64,000 nt of DNA from Asaia bogorensis. Its GTDB lineage: Bacteria; Pseudomonadota; Alphaproteobacteria; Acetobacterales; Acetobacteraceae. The notes under the pieces were generated by a model. The model ran no database searches and had not been told where the DNA came from. It was given only the letters and a program-made list of their open reading frames with translations. Shown here in pieces: positions 7,348 through 50,460 of the stretch. The stretch spans positions 62,001-126,000 of the forward strand of contig CAMBRC010000001.1 of NCBI GenBank assembly GCA_945869965.1. Direction: 5' to 3'. The stretch's first letter is position 1. Every line of letters starts with the position of its first letter. The position numbers and the translations under genes were made by a program.

Positions 7348-7519
7348 CCAAGGCAAGCGAGCCTCCGGCGGCAAAGGGCCGGGGGCCCTTTGAACCCATT
7401 CATCTGCCTGCGGCACCAGCCGAGATCACCCGAAGCCGGTCTACCGCTCATCTTATAGAATGGGATCAAAGGGCCCCCGGCCCTTTGCCGCCGGAGGCTT
7501 GCTTGCTCGATTGCCTTGG
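7348..7519. repeat. GC-rich long inverted repeat, copy 1
   Basis: The left arm (7348-7400) contains GCCTCCGGCGGCAAAGGG followed by CCGGGGGCCC. The right arm (about 7459-7519) is its reverse complement with few mismatches. Each arm also contains its own GGGCC-rich palindrome. Roughly 60 bases of unrelated sequence lie between. It separates the dehydrogenase from the importer operon and could form a very stable RNA hairpin or terminator. A second copy is at 34841-34974. Confidence 0.85.
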
Positions 7520-28578: not shown

Positions 28579-28660
28579 CGGGACCTCCTGAACACGGTAT
28601 GGCGAGACTAGAGCGATGGCGCGGCCAGACCAACCATCAAGGTGAAAGATCAAGATAAGG

Positions 28661-28756
28661 CTGGGCTCTGCCCAGACCCGCCAGGGGCCAAGCCCCTGGA
28701 CCTTAAAACATGAGGGTCTGGGGGCTCGGCCCCCAGCGGGTCTGGGCAGAGCCCAG
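28661..28756. repeat. CCAGGGGC-type palindromes nested in a 96-base inverted repeat, copy 3
   Basis: Four small hairpins occur in order: CTGGGCTCTGCCCAG, CCAGGGGCCAAGCCCCTGG, CTGGGGGCTCGGCCCCCAG and CTGGGCAGAGCCCAG. The outer arms of about 30 bases are also reverse complements of each other, so the whole element can fold as one large hairpin. It separates the binding-protein gene from the M81 gene; both read leftwards. Confidence 0.85.
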
Positions 28757-28767
28757 CCGTAAGCTTG

Positions 28768-34840: not shown

Positions 34841-34974
34841 GCAAGCAAGCCTCCGGCGGCAAAGGGCCGGGGGCCCTTTGATCCCCTTTAATTGGCTCGC
34901 TGGTGGGGCGGAGTACGGATGCCAAGTCATGGGGTCAAGGGGCCGCCGGCCCCTTGCCGCCAGAGGCTTGCTTA
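34841..34974. repeat. GC-rich long inverted repeat, copy 2
   Basis: The left arm (34841-34888) carries GCCTCCGGCGGCAAAGGG and CCGGGGGCCC, as in copy 1 at 7348. The right arm (34931-34974) is the reverse complement with several changes (GGGGCCGCCGGCCCC). About 40 unrelated bases lie between. The end of the right arm supplies the stop codon of the DUF1244 gene. Confidence 0.85.
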
Positions 34975-36672: not shown

Positions 36673-38106
36673 ATGTCGATACGGACCAAGATCCGCCGCC
36701 GGCGTCGCACCAAGATCATCGCGACGCTGGGGCCGGCCAGTTCCTCGCCGGAGGTGCTGGCCAGGCTGTTCCAGGCGGGGGCGGATGTGTTCCGGCTGAA
36801 TTTCAGCCATGGCACGCATGACGACCATGCGGCGCGGATTGCGATGATCCGCGACATGGAGACGCGGTTCGACCGGCCGATCGGGATCCTGGCGGATGTG
36901 CAGGGGCCGAAGCTGCGGGTCGGGCAGTTCGGCGGCGGGCGGGTGCAGTTGCAGACCGGGCAGGCGTTTCGGCTCGACCTTAATCCGACGCCGGGGGATG
37001 TGCGGCGGGTGCAGTTGCCGCATCCGGAGATCATGGCGGCGGCCAGCATCGGCACCACGCTGTTGCTGGACGATGGTAAGCTGCGGCTGCGGGTGACGCG
37101 CGCCCGGGCGGATCACCTGGAAACCGAGGTGACCGTCGGCGGGCCGCTGTCCGACCGCAAGGGCGTCAACGTGCCGGACATTGTGCTGCCCATCCCAGCG
37201 CTGACCGACAAGGACCGGTTGGACCTGGCTTTCGCGCTGGAGCATGGCGTCGATTATATCGGGCTGTCGTTCGTGCAGCGGCCGGAGGATGTGGCGGAGG
37301 CGCGCGATATCGCGGCCGGCCGGGCGTGGATCATGACCAAGGTGGAGAAGCCGCAGGCGCTGGACAACCTCGAGGAGATCACCCGGTTGTCGGATGCGGT
37401 CATGGTGGCGCGTGGCGACCTGGGGGTGGAGTTGCCGCCCGAGGAGGTTCCGCTGGCGCAGAAGCGGATCGTTCGCACGGCCCGGCAGATGGGGCGGCCG
37501 GTGGTGGTGGCCACGCAGATGCTGGAGAGCATGATCACGGCGCCGGCACCGACGCGGGCAGAGGCTTCAGATGTGGCGACGGCGGTGTTCGACGGGGCGG
37601 ACGCGGTGATGCTGTCGGCGGAGACGGCGGCGGGGCAGTATCCGTTCGAGGCGGTGAACATCATGGATCGCATCATCGCGCGGGTGGAGGAGGATTCCGG
37701 CTGGCGGGCGATGATCGAGGCGTCGCGACCGGCGCCGGAACATTCGGCGGCGGACGCGATCTGTGCCGCGGCGCGCCAGGTCGCCCATACGATCGATGCC
37801 GCGGTGATCTGCGCCTTTACCGCCAGCGGCAGCACGGCGTTGCGCGCGGCGCGGGAGCGACCGGAGGCGCCGATCCTGGGGCTGACGACGGCATTGAGCA
37901 CGGCCCGGCGGTTGGCGCTGGTTTGGGGGGTGCATGCGGTGCTCGCGCCCGAAGTGCATTCGATGACCGAGACGGTGGCGAAGGCGACGCGCACCGCGGC
38001 GCAGGAAGGGTTTGCCGCGGCCGGCAATCCGATCATCGTCATTGCCGGCGTGCCGTTCGGGCAGCCTGGTGCGACGAATGCGTTGCGGGTGGCTTACGTC
38101 CGGTAA
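36673..38106 (+). CDS. pyk: Pyruvate kinase
   Basis: The 477-residue pyruvate kinase has the start KIIATLGPASSSPEVLARLFQAGADVFRLNFSHGTH. The active-site stretch IMTKVEKPQALDNLEEI carries the catalytic Lys, and DAVMVARGDLGVELPPEEVPLAQKRI follows. The MLSAETAAGQYPFEAV segment and a C-terminal regulatory-type domain are also present. It makes ATP and pyruvate from PEP. It is the second gene of the ttuD-pyk pair, so this copy may be dedicated to glycerate or tartrate use. Confidence 0.95.
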   Translation: MSIRTKIRRRRRTKIIATLGPASSSPEVLARLFQAGADVFRLNFSHGTHDDHAARIAMIRDMETRFDRPIGILADVQGPKLRVGQFGGGRVQLQTGQAFRLDLNPTPGDVRRVQLPHPEIMAAASIGTTLLLDDGKLRLRVTRARADHLETEVTVGGPLSDRKGVNVPDIVLPIPALTDKDRLDLAFALEHGVDYIGLSFVQRPEDVAEARDIAAGRAWIMTKVEKPQALDNLEEITRLSDAVMVARGDLGVELPPEEVPLAQKRIVRTARQMGRPVVVATQMLESMITAPAPTRAEASDVATAVFDGADAVMLSAETAAGQYPFEAVNIMDRIIARVEEDSGWRAMIEASRPAPEHSAADAICAAARQVAHTIDAAVICAFTASGSTALRAARERPEAPILGLTTALSTARRLALVWGVHAVLAPEVHSMTETVAKATRTAAQEGFAAAGNPIIVIAGVPFGQPGATNALRVAYVR

Positions 38107-38375
38107 GGCGACGTATCGCCGATCAGGAAATATGGCGCCGATCTGCTGGGCGGTGCTCCTTGCGTCAGGGCGCCGGCTTTGCGGGAGGCGTTTTCCTGCG
38201 GGTGGATTGTGGCCGGGAGGGTGCGGCCGGGCAAATCGTAAAAATAGCGTATAGATGATATTTTACTCAGCAATCTAAAATTTAGCACGTTTAAGCGCTT
38301 GAATACGCGAATTTAGGGTTGTAAAAATCTTCTTATGATTGTAACTGTGGATCATACACGCGTATGGAGATGCAA
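38107..38375 (+). promoter_or_regulatory. AT-rich upstream region of ctrA
   Basis: The last ~150 bases before ctrA are the most AT-rich intergenic stretch of the window. They include an AAGCGCTT palindrome (38293-38300) and one TTAA half-site followed seven bases later by AATA, a poor match to the CtrA box TTAA-N7-TTAA. No GANTC methylation site was seen, unlike the Caulobacter ctrA P1 promoter. A promoter is very likely here, but its elements cannot be pinned down. Confidence 0.45.
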
Positions 38376-39143
38376 GTGCGCATTCTTTTGGTAGAAGATG
38401 ATCTGATCGTCGCACGTGCGGTGACCATGATGCTGAAATCGATCAACGCCGTGGTTGACCAAACGGATACCGGCGAGGAAGCGATCGAGCTTGCCCGCCA
38501 CTATGACTATGACATCGTCGTTCTCGACCTGATGTTGCCTGACATGGAGGGTTACGAAGTCGTTCGACGCCTTCGTGCGGCGCGGGTTGAGGTTCCGGTG
38601 TTGATCCTGTCCGGGCTGTCGCGTCCGCAGGCAAAGGTAAAGGGTCTCAGCCTGGGTGCTGACGATTTCATCACCAAGCCGTTCGACAAGGCGGAATTGC
38701 TCGCGCGGATCCAGGCGATTGTCCGGCGCAGCAAAGGCTTCAGCCACCCTTCGATCGGCGTTGGGGCCATCAAGTTGTTGCTCGACAGCCGTGAGGTGAC
38801 GATCGGCGACCACGAGGTTCACCTGACCGGCAAGGAATATTCGATCCTTGAATTGTTGATGCTGCGCAAGGGCATCGTGCTCACCAAGGAAATGTTCCTC
38901 AACCACCTCTATGGCGGCATGGACGAGCCGGAAGCCAAGATCATCGACGTTTTCATCTGCAAACTGCGCAAGAAACTCGCAAGCTTCGGCGCCGGCGATC
39001 TCATTGTGACGGTTTGGGGGCGCGGCTATATGATGCGCGACCCGGCGCAAAAGAACGTTGGTGATCCTGCGGTCGCCGGCGCTTCGGTCGGTGATGCGCT
39101 GTCCGGGCATCTGGACGACGAACGGATGGTGGCGCGGGTCTAA
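38376..39143 (+). CDS. ctrA: Cell-cycle response regulator CtrA
   Basis: This 255-residue OmpR-type regulator has a receiver domain with acidic pocket EDD (residues 7-9) and phospho-acceptor Asp51 in VVLDLMLPD. The DNA-binding domain [34 protein letters not shown] and [14 protein letters not shown] is nearly identical to Caulobacter CtrA. GTG 38376 is chosen: GGAG lies six bases upstream, and it gives MRILLVEDD and places the phospho-Asp at position 51, as in Caulobacter. The C-terminus ends VARV, not the Ala-Ala end used for ClpXP recognition there. CtrA controls motility, division and phage-like genes in this class. Confidence 0.93.
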
Positions 39144-39215
39144 GGCGCGCGCCTGGCGCCGGGGCGTAGGACCCCGTCCTGGGCAAGAGTTCACAGCGTC
39201 CTAGCGCTGAATGTG

Positions 39216-39276
39216 ATGCCAATCGCTTCCAGGATCTATCGATACGCCATCGGTAGATCCTGGAAGCGATTGGCAT
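39216..39276. repeat. 61-base near-perfect hairpin downstream of ctrA
   Basis: The left arm 39216-39243 and right arm 39249-39276 pair over 28 positions with a single T-G pair, around a five-base loop ACGCC. The stem contains ATGCCAATCGCTTCC and its exact complement. There is no T-run after it, so it is not a classical terminator. It is by far the longest perfect stem in the window and unlike the other repeat families. Confidence 0.9.
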
Positions 39277-39360
39277 GAAGCCTATGGAATTCCGGCATTT
39301 TGCCACGAAGGCTGCCCAAAGCGGCTGAAAGCGGCCGCATCTCGCTGACCAAAAATGACC

Positions 39361-39432
39361 AGGTCCAGGGGTTTGGCACGTCGCGCGAAGGCGCGATTCG
39401 AACCAGGCAGGTACAGGGCAGCGCCCTGCCCT
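39361..39432. repeat. Degenerate CCAGGGGC-type repeat, copy 4
   Basis: AGGTCCAGGGGTTTGGCACG resembles the start of the other copies but has lost its symmetry. GCGCGAAGGCGCG and CAGGGCAGCGCCCTG (39414-39428) still form hairpins. The remainder of the 350-base gap between ctrA and the acyl-CoA synthetase holds only the 61-base hairpin at 39216-39276. Confidence 0.65.
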
Positions 39433-39493
39433 CCCTCTTCCTGAATCGTTGACCCTGCGCTCTTGTAAAGGTCATCGAAACCGGGAGATTGCC

Positions 39494-41020
39494 TTGCAAG
39501 ATGAATTCGCGCCCGCCGAGCGGACCCTGCCGAAGATGCTGCAACGGCAGGCGGCGAAGTATGGCACCAGGCCGTTGTTTCGCATCGGCGATACGACGTG
39601 GTCGTATGCCGATATGCCTGTGCTTGCCGCCGCCGCGGCCGGGCGGCTGCGCGATGCCGGGTTGAAGCCGGGCGACCGGCTGGCCGTCATGTGCCCGAAC
39701 CGGGCAGAGTTCCTGGAACTGTACCTGGGCTGTGCGTGGTCCGGCGTGATCATGGTGCCGATCAACACCGCCTCGCGCGGGCCGCAATTGCAGCATGTGC
39801 TGGCGAATTCCGGGGCGCGCATCCTGGCGCTCGAGGCCGAGCTACTGCATGTGCTGGATCGCATCGACCGGTCGGCGCTTGCGCTGGAGACGGTTTGGGC
39901 GGTCGAGGAATTGCCGCCACGGGGTGCGGGCATGCCGCCGCACCCGTCGCGTCCCGGCGATACCGTGGCGATCCTGTACACGTCGGGGACCACCGGGCCG
40001 TCGAAGGGTGTGTGCTGTCCGCACGCGCAGATGTACTGGTGGGGGGTCATCGCCGGACGATTGCTTGAGCTGAGCGCCGATGACGTGCTGTGTACCACCC
40101 TGCCGATGTTCCACACCAATGCGCTGAACACGTTTCACCAGGCGTTGCTGCATGGGGCCGCGATGGTGCTGGAGCCGCGGTTTTCTGCGTCCGGCTTCTG
40201 GCCGGCGATGATCGCGGCTGGCGCCACGGTGACCTATGTGCTCGGGGCGATGGTACCAATCCTGATGGCACAGCCGCCAAGCGAAGCGGAGCGTGGCCAT
40301 CGGCTGCGGGTGTCGCTGGCGCCGGGGGTGCCCGGGCACCTGCAGGCGCCGTTCATTGCGCGCACCGGGTTGCGGATGATCGATGGCTACGGTTCCACCG
40401 AGACTAACTTCACGCTGGGCACGACCGTCGATCACCAGCGGCCGGGATTGATGGGGCCGGTGGTCGACGGGTTCGAAGCCCACGTGGTGGACGAGGACGA
40501 CAACCCGGTGGCCGATGGCGCGCCGGGCGAATTGGTGCTGCGCGCGCACGAGCCATTTGCATTCGCGACGGGCTATTGGGGGATGCCGGAGAAGACGGTC
40601 GAGGCATGGCAGAATCTACGCTTTCATACAGGCGACCGGGTGGTGCGCGAGGCCGACGGCTGGTACCGCTTCATGGATCGGATGAAGGATGCGGTGCGCC
40701 GGCGCGGCGAGAATATCTCCGCGTTTGAGGTCGAACAGGTGCTGCTGACCCATCCCGAGATTGCCGGCGCCGCGGTGTTTCCGGTGCGCTCCGAACTGGC
40801 CGAGGACGAGGTGATGGCCGCCATCATCCGCACGCCCGGCAGCATGCTGGGGCCGGCGGCGATTTGCGAATTCTGCGCGCCGCTGCTGGCAAAGTTCGCC
40901 ATTCCGCGGTTCATCGATTTCGTCGACGCACTGCCGTTGACCGAGAATGGCAAGGTTCGAAAATTCATGCTGATCGAGCGCGGCGTGACGGCCGGCACCT
41001 GGGACCGGGCGGCGGGCTGA
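39494..41020 (+). CDS. AMP-forming acyl-CoA synthetase
   Basis: The 508-residue adenylate-forming enzyme has the P-loop-like YTSGTTGPSKGV (about residue 173), IDGYGSTETNF, the TGDRVVREADGWYRFMDRMKDAVRRRGENIS hinge region and the catalytic Lys in LTENGKVRKF. It activates a carboxylic acid to its CoA ester. It resembles the crotonobetaine/carnitine-CoA ligase (CaiC-like) group. TTG 39494 is chosen because GGGAG lies seven bases upstream and the product then starts MQDEFAPAERTLP. It is followed by an aldolase-fold gene and a C45 gene in the same direction. Confidence 0.88.
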   Translation: MQDEFAPAERTLPKMLQRQAAKYGTRPLFRIGDTTWSYADMPVLAAAAAGRLRDAGLKPGDRLAVMCPNRAEFLELYLGCAWSGVIMVPINTASRGPQLQHVLANSGARILALEAELLHVLDRIDRSALALETVWAVEELPPRGAGMPPHPSRPGDTVAILYTSGTTGPSKGVCCPHAQMYWWGVIAGRLLELSADDVLCTTLPMFHTNALNTFHQALLHGAAMVLEPRFSASGFWPAMIAAGATVTYVLGAMVPILMAQPPSEAERGHRLRVSLAPGVPGHLQAPFIARTGLRMIDGYGSTETNFTLGTTVDHQRPGLMGPVVDGFEAHVVDEDDNPVADGAPGELVLRAHEPFAFATGYWGMPEKTVEAWQNLRFHTGDRVVREADGWYRFMDRMKDAVRRRGENISAFEVEQVLLTHPEIAGAAVFPVRSELAEDEVMAAIIRTPGSMLGPAAICEFCAPLLAKFAIPRFIDFVDALPLTENGKVRKFMLIERGVTAGTWDRAAG

Positions 41021-44657: not shown

Positions 44658-44739
44658 GAGTGACCGCACCAATGTGGGCGGCGGCCCGCGGTGCCGCAAG
44701 TCGTCCGCCCGGGAGGTGGCGAAGCCTTCATCCGAATGT

Positions 44740-44784
44740 CAGGCGATCGAGAACCGGGGACGGAGCCCGATCCTCGATCGCCTG
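44740..44784. other. Inverted repeat between hflC and degP
   Basis: CAGGCGATCGAG (44740-44751) and CTCGATCGCCTG (44773-44784) are exact reverse complements of 12 bases with a 21-base loop. The location downstream of hflC and upstream of degP suggests an attenuating or RNA-processing hairpin, or an operator for degP. There is no T-run on the minus strand. Confidence 0.7.
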
Positions 44785-44792
44785 AGTCGGCA

Positions 44793-50059: not shown

Positions 50060-50127
50060 GAGGGTCGAGTCCCTTTCATCCGCAGCCCGGACACCCTATA
50101 TTCCGGCTGCCGGCTTGCCGGCTATGG

Positions 50128-50413
50128 TGATAAACGGTGATTGGAATAAGCGTTGTGGACCCGGGGGCAGTGCCCGGCGCCTCCACCAGTCTCGCAGCCG
50201 CGGGAATATGGGGGCGAAACAGGCTCGACACGCGTGGTAAAGACTCATCTTTTGCTCGGCATGGTTCCGCCGTTATCGGGCCGTATCACAAGTGCCAATG
50301 ACAATCATCAGGCGCTCGCTGTCGCTGCATAAGCGATAAGCGCGGTTCGGGGGGCACCGGGCAACAGAAGCCCCCCACTTCCGGCGCGGCGACCCGCGCA
50401 CCATCGGGCGCCT
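50128..50413 (+). ncRNA. ssrA: Circularly permuted two-piece tmRNA (alpha type)
   Basis: The acceptor piece comes first: CCCGG-stemmed T-arm with loop GGCAGTG, then CGCCTCC and an encoded CCA at 50186-50188. About 20 bases later the coding piece begins with GGGGGCG (50210-50216), which pairs with CGCCTCC, followed by the conserved CTCGACACGCGTGGTAAAG. The tag frame at 50294-50332 reads ANDNHQALAVAA then TAA, matching alphaproteobacterial tags that end in AVAA or ALAA. A GGGGGGC/GCCCCCC hairpin (about 50349-50376) lies in the 3' part. tmRNA with SmpB frees stalled ribosomes. Outer ends are approximate. Confidence 0.9.
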
Positions 50414-50460
50414 TCGCACGATGTACTTGCGCGGCCAACAGCACGTCGCCACGCTGCGGC

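Follow-up and report, generated by a model that had tools for sequence, protein, structure and literature searches.

Immediately downstream of ctrA in Asaia bogorensis, two 28-nt stretches face each other as near-perfect reverse complements. Is this hairpin a functional RNA, a protein-binding site, a mobile element or an artefact, or is it the product of a single mutation? We considered these possibilities for the window (the whole 64,000-nt stretch of DNA that was analysed) and in comparison with related genomes, plasmids, phages and viral contigs.

Geometry and surroundings of the hairpin

The two arms are 96% complementary and enclose a 5-nt loop, ACGCC (Table 1). Their sole non-Watson-Crick pair, T39239·G39253, separates four inner pairs (CGAT at 39240-39243 with ATCG at 39249-39252) from 23 perfect outer pairs, and beyond the arm ends complementarity ceases save for one isolated extra pair. 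A sequence-only reading of this DNA had described 28-base arms with one T-G pair and a five-base loop, which the coordinates and pairing bear out. As RNA, the hairpin has a minimum free energy of -53.1 kcal/mol, compared with -19.6 +/- 3.0 for shuffled versions (z = -11.1; none of 200 shuffles equalled it). Its stem score (length minus twice the number of mismatches, with at most one mismatch and a loop of at most 20 nt) is 26, against a best score of 17 in 40 first-order Markov windows of 64 kb. A 28-bp stem is thus far beyond chance. The G+C content is 51% in the hairpin and 66% in the window.

Table 1. Coordinates in the window of the hairpin, its parts and its neighbors
Feature	Coordinates	Strand	Remarks
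Hairpin left arm	39216-39243	.	Inverted repeat; outer 39216-39238 pairs perfectly with 39254-39276
Hairpin right arm	39249-39276	.	Outermost 6-8 nt possibly common to congener G318
Inner 4-bp stem and 5-nt loop, CGAT-ACGCC-ATCG	39240-39252	.	From sequence; putative seed
ctrA, response regulator CtrA, upstream neighbor	38364-39143	+	Pfam Response_reg and Trans_reg_C; NCBIfam NF045991, 362.9 bits (cut-off 350)
Intergenic DNA, hairpin to next gene	39277-39493	+	Common to congener G318 in part; carries dispersed repeat
Acyl-CoA ligase, downstream neighbor	39494-41020	+	NCBIfam NF004808, 794 bits (cut-off 722); start codon picked by eye

The hairpin starts 72 nt past the ctrA stop codon and is co-directional with ctrA and the acyl-CoA ligase gene that comes next. 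A pyruvate kinase gene precedes ctrA, and a class II aldolase-type gene follows the ligase gene. The three closest named relatives of this CtrA (72-76% identity, in a search that near records may lie outside) come from an Acetobacteraceae MAG and two Falsiroseomonas, which we take to be members of the Acetobacteraceae, so that the organism itself probably belongs there. Between the hairpin and the ligase gene, at about 39361-39442, lies a dispersed repeat with many partial copies across the genus (about 75-94% identity). Elsewhere, the window carries a tmRNA gene at 50096-50423 (ARAGORN, marked with an asterisk; tag ANDNHQALAVAA) and large G+C-rich palindromic repeats at 7353-7506, 28656-28761 and 34843-34973.

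The stem is not followed by a T-run, as the sequence-only reading had also noted, and a search of 38900-39700 for terminator-like sites came up empty; an intrinsic terminator was rejected on this ground. A known structured RNA family was likewise rejected, because no Rfam covariance model matched 38100-39700 at E <= 1. A single promoter-like site was found in 38900-39700, a 9/12 match within ctrA.

The interval past ctrA in other genomes

Our genus set comprised nine genomes. At E <= 1e-60, ctrA was found in the hairpin's own genome and in five of the eight others, and in none of G244, G274 and G318. The congener ctrA genes are 78-81% identical to the window at the nucleotide level over the aligned part. 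The sequence-only reading had proposed comparing close relatives for presence or absence of the hairpin, and the answer was absence: none of the five congeners with a readable 3' flank has a hairpin of at least 16 bp with at most one mismatch after ctrA (the readable DNA past ctrA is 453-454 nt in G033 and G212). In a genus-wide DNA search, moreover, the alignment of these five congeners to the window ends inside ctrA, except for the dispersed repeat. The same reading had held that so long a stem is rarely kept by chance. Its first half stands, since fold energy and stem score both exceed chance; that the stem has been "kept" is not supported, as it was not found after ctrA in any of the five readable congeners, with no match beside the hairpin save the dispersed repeat.

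What follows ctrA differs among these congeners. G171 carries an IS4/5-type transposase gene approximately 340 nt beyond the stop codon, and G297 has an integrase-core match that falls under the curated cut-off. In G119, an aldolase-type gene lies approximately 560 nt beyond ctrA, and the ligase gene is absent between them. These insertions and gene orders indicate that the interval past ctrA is fluid. When the 72-nt spacer that separates the hairpin from ctrA was compared with the G119 intergenic DNA, a single marginal alignment emerged, on the reverse strand, equalled by 1 of 100 shuffles and arising in one of eight comparisons; we dismissed it as G+C-rich noise.

Only G318 shares with the hairpin's own genome the ligase gene (two of nine genus genomes at E <= 1e-150; 92% protein identity) and the intergenic DNA ahead of it. 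Here G318 is 76% identical to the window over 82 aligned sites at 39277-39360 and 81% identical over 59 at 39438-39497. The homology runs up to the hairpin's right edge and may continue 6-8 nt inside it (ATTGGCAT in the window, ATTAGCAG in G318). Six of the outer 8 nt of the right arm match, although two of these nucleotides also belong to the shared terminus of a multicopy element, leaving 4/6 otherwise. G318 has five occurrences of this element, which share one end but differ in their flanks, and on G318:C518, before the ligase gene, the element takes over 6-8 nt inside the right arm. Because it covers the spot, G318 does not reveal how many arms, one or two, were present in the ancestor. 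The other readable congeners have no alignable DNA there, and an ancestral sequence with one arm only was not found in the genus set.

G318 does, however, give a measure of age. Over the two segments aligned beside the hairpin, 31 of 141 sites differ. At that rate, approximately six changes would be expected in the hairpin's own lineage since the split from G318 at 46 unconstrained arm sites, and the probability of none is about 0.0025. Thus, either the stem arose after the G318 split, or selection or repeated template correction has kept it perfect.

The flanks also bear on whether the hairpin is an assembly or amplification chimera. The assembly is a draft in 209 contigs. The contig that carries the locus is nevertheless 137,636 bases long, with its nearer end 36 kb away, and the flanks do not run on as reverse complements of each other. 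To the left is ctrA; to the right is DNA homologous to that of G318, in its natural order with its gene; and G119 has the same aldolase-type gene close to its ctrA. With genuine host DNA on both sides and complementarity that ends at the arms save for the isolated pair, we regard an artefact as highly improbable.

We then compared the 300 nt after the ctrA stop codon with 104 loci from other genomes (80 named and 24 unnamed; 102 with the full 300 nt). The best stem score among them was 17, in Ruegeria and Thalassospira, so that the 28-bp stem is exceptional for its place. Nine of the 104 loci have a stem scoring at least 13, most with A/T-rich ends that resemble ordinary terminators by eye; none of the five congeners does. 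A stem after ctrA is not rare as such, but one of such length was not seen in the 104 loci. Across the 428,831 bases around the 80 named loci, a single stem reached 18 bp with no more than one mismatch, the 19-bp stem of Ruegeria (L111). Long stems resembling each other lie between ctrA and the next gene at L111:3286-3339 and at the same place in a second Ruegeria locus (L090). By eye they seem to include the ATG of the next gene, and the L111 stem is unrelated in sequence to the hairpin in the window.

These comparisons weigh on the proposal that the hairpin is a functional RNA in the ctrA 3' untranslated region (UTR), which as an RNase III cleavage site, a 3'-end shield replacing a terminator or a small RNA source would set the level of ctrA mRNA. 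Several features would suit such a role: the very stable fold, the position and direction relative to both genes, the arms that are still near-perfect, and the lack of a T-run terminator where nine other loci carry a scoring stem. If transcribed, a stem as long as this could also physically be cut by RNase III. Yet a comparable stem conserved after the ctrA orthologues of the genus, as expected of an RNase III-processed 3' UTR, was found in 0 of the 5 readable congeners, one of which (G171) has its transposase gene approximately 340 nt past the stop codon. The Rfam result and the location of the sole promoter-like site within ctrA are also unfavorable. Our literature search on ctrA with RNase III and the untranslated region returned no title on that topic. 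We consider a functional RNA unlikely. The absence from five readable congeners makes an old role at the 3' end of ctrA mRNA unlikely in particular; a role there is possible but unsupported.

Copies of the hairpin and other hairpins of the genome

The sequence-only reading had proposed searching the genome for further copies and had listed a miniature element among its candidates. The search returned one full copy, with all remaining matches of 14-22 nt. When the 21-nt arm core was searched with at most three mismatches, it recovered both arms and one 18/21 match that looks coding. Outside this genome, matches were found in 4 of 397 family genomes at E <= 0.01 (the hairpin's own genome and three partial matches of 22-25 nt) and in 2 of 385 class genomes at E <= 0.001 (its own and one partial match without a hairpin). 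Both sets are samples from larger groups, and neither contained a convincing copy outside the hairpin's own genome. No copy was found among plasmids, where the single 28-nt match falls outside the hairpin, and the phage and viral-contig searches gave no hairpin match.

Note that the other matches are short and at chance level, and several (L010, L012 and L264) appear by eye to fall within reading frames that contain consecutive Ile-Leu-Glu-Ala codons. The best outsider, G535, matches in 33 of 39 aligned columns with gaps counted (E = 8e-4 per genome, approximately 0.3 expected over 385). It sits within a reading frame that is presumably RsmB-like, and no hairpin of at least 11 bp was found around it. 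The hairpin is therefore single-copy and lineage-restricted in the family and class sampled, as expected of a template-switch duplication.

The place is insertion-prone, given the transposase gene of G171, the sub-threshold integrase-core match of G297 and the five-place element of G318 at the homologous spot, and would thus suit a miniature mobile element or the remnant of an insertion sequence whose terminal inverted repeats adjoin. However, the genome, family, class, plasmid, phage and viral searches yielded no convincing copy, the 18/21 coding-looking match being the nearest in the genome, and by eye there is no target-site duplication at the arm ends (TGTG before, GAAG after). These results argue against the miniature element of the sequence-only reading, and we judge a mobile origin improbable. 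The single full site is also unfavorable to a protein-binding palindrome or cruciform acting at the DNA level. A long symmetrical site could bind a dimer or be extruded, but regulator sites are usually shorter, imperfect and repeated, and such a role would seem very unlikely.

How unusual is the hairpin within its own genome? We scanned 2,055,636 of its 4,735,198 bases (43%) for stems that reach 18 bp with no more than two mismatches and enclose a loop of at most 20 nt; the scans detect ungapped stems only, and their speed filter may miss some. Of the 34 hairpins that passed, 28 recur elsewhere in the sample (BLAST E <= 1e-4). The ctrA-adjacent hairpin has the longest stem of the remaining six. 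The other five lie at 44739-44785 of the window and at L146:515-570, L152:7499-7573, L272:4972-5015 and L283:15900-15943. The L272 hairpin has T-rich ends and is terminator-like by eye, and the L152 hairpin, judging by its flanks, is a variant of the composite repeat described below with almost wholly different arms. Of the single-copy hairpins in the 2.06 Mb sampled, the nearest counterpart is L146:515-570 (G000:C11:515-570), with a 23-bp stem that includes 20 consecutive perfect pairs, a 10-nt loop and no T-run. Its ancestry is unreadable because two congeners share sequence only from 81 nt rightward.

The genome also harbors a composite intergenic repeat in which two outer palindromes surround a central stem of approximately 27-39 bp, of the GCGCCTTCGGC...GCCGAAGGCGC type. 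Its central arms vary between copies yet remain matched. Copies in this genome include L175:9140-9330, L139:150-340, L157:4264-4449, L171:9113-9306 and L179:7533-7720, and congener G119 has one at L191:3003-3191. One query gave at least 50 matches in the hairpin's own genome at E <= 1e-12, self and reverse-strand matches included, with 40 of 286 candidates scored. At least 10 copies lie close to a contig end.

Given so many composite repeats with long co-varying central stems, the hairpin could be a diverged central stem of this kind whose arms changed together. Its fit to 18 central stems, taken from 30 loci among the 50 matches listed, was nevertheless equalled by 75.5% of 200 shuffles, and by eye it lacks the two flanking palindromes. 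We rejected membership in the composite repeat, a reading that we hold to be exceedingly improbable. The sequence-only reading had seen no likeness to other repeats, and the genome search, the central-stem comparison and the hairpin scan found none.

Fold-back template switching and known systems

With moderate confidence, we favor the reading that the hairpin is a recent inverted duplication, made in a single event by a fold-back template switch in fast-changing intergenic DNA, with no selected function shown. A stalled nascent strand would fold back on the 4-bp seed, CGAT/ATCG around the 5-nt loop, extend by approximately 23 nt using itself as template, and return to the normal template, so that one arm would have been written as the reverse complement of the other, next to it. 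Such a process has precedents: according to the accessible text of PMC7202029, fold-back template switching makes inverted repeats more perfect in Escherichia coli, with the nascent strand as template at imperfect palindromes, and one-event creation of long perfect RNA stems has been proposed from reconstructed histories in the accessible text of PMC8794818.

The arms are perfect outside a short seed, with 23 outer pairs and the mismatch at the 4-bp inner stem, which fits a template switch and is not unique to it. The mismatch position alone weighs little, since 5 of the 28 positions (about 18%) would fit. The 6-8 nt of similarity to G318 hint, very weakly, that the right arm may be the older one; if so, a C·A mismatch would follow the seed instead of a G·T wobble, or the change came later. 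Also against a template switch, selection for the stem would likewise keep the arms perfect, and some alphaproteobacterial ctrA genes have a shorter, often terminator-like stem near the same place. The single copy, the near-perfect arms, the mismatch beside a minimal seed, the absence from the readable congeners and the genuine flanks are observed; the template-switch step, the recency and the absence of a selected function we infer. The hairpin itself is a real, non-chance, single-copy and probably young inverted duplication with no evidence of function.

It is also conceivable, as a long shot, that one species has only now acquired, by a template switch, a new 28-bp stem in the ctrA 3' UTR in place of an ordinary terminator, and that processing or shielding would now alter the stability of ctrA mRNA. 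If true, a bacterial regulatory RNA element would here be seen at its very origin, on the master cell-cycle regulator ctrA. If only the template switch is true, the locus would provide a clean bacterial case of a long perfect stem from one event, beside a cell-cycle regulator gene. Taken alone, the hairpin is one neutral-looking mutation. More generally, an isolated hairpin may be conspicuous and yet have no function when it sits in intergenic DNA that is prone to insertions.

The hairpin resembles several known systems in part. Like an intrinsic terminator, it is a stem-loop shortly past a stop codon, a position at which terminator-like stems occur after some other ctrA genes; unlike a terminator, it lacks a T-run, and its stem exceeds any in the 104 ctrA loci. 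Repetitive extragenic palindromes and miniature inverted-repeat elements are likewise intergenic palindromes able to form stems, but they are multi-copy whereas the hairpin is single-copy. RNA stems made by template switching, such as those of new microRNA loci, also offer a long perfect stem from one event; for these, phylogenetic analysis backs an origin as reverse-complement repeats (accessible text of PMC8794818), whereas for the hairpin this origin is a proposal. In the quasipalindrome template-switch mutations of E. coli, studied with lacZ reporters and at the thyA hotspot, the cases described in the accessible text of PMC7202029 correct an existing imperfect repeat, whereas here a 4-bp seed would have been lengthened by approximately 23 bp. 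The likeness lies in the process itself, in which a self-copied nascent strand perfects an inverted repeat, as it may have done beside ctrA.
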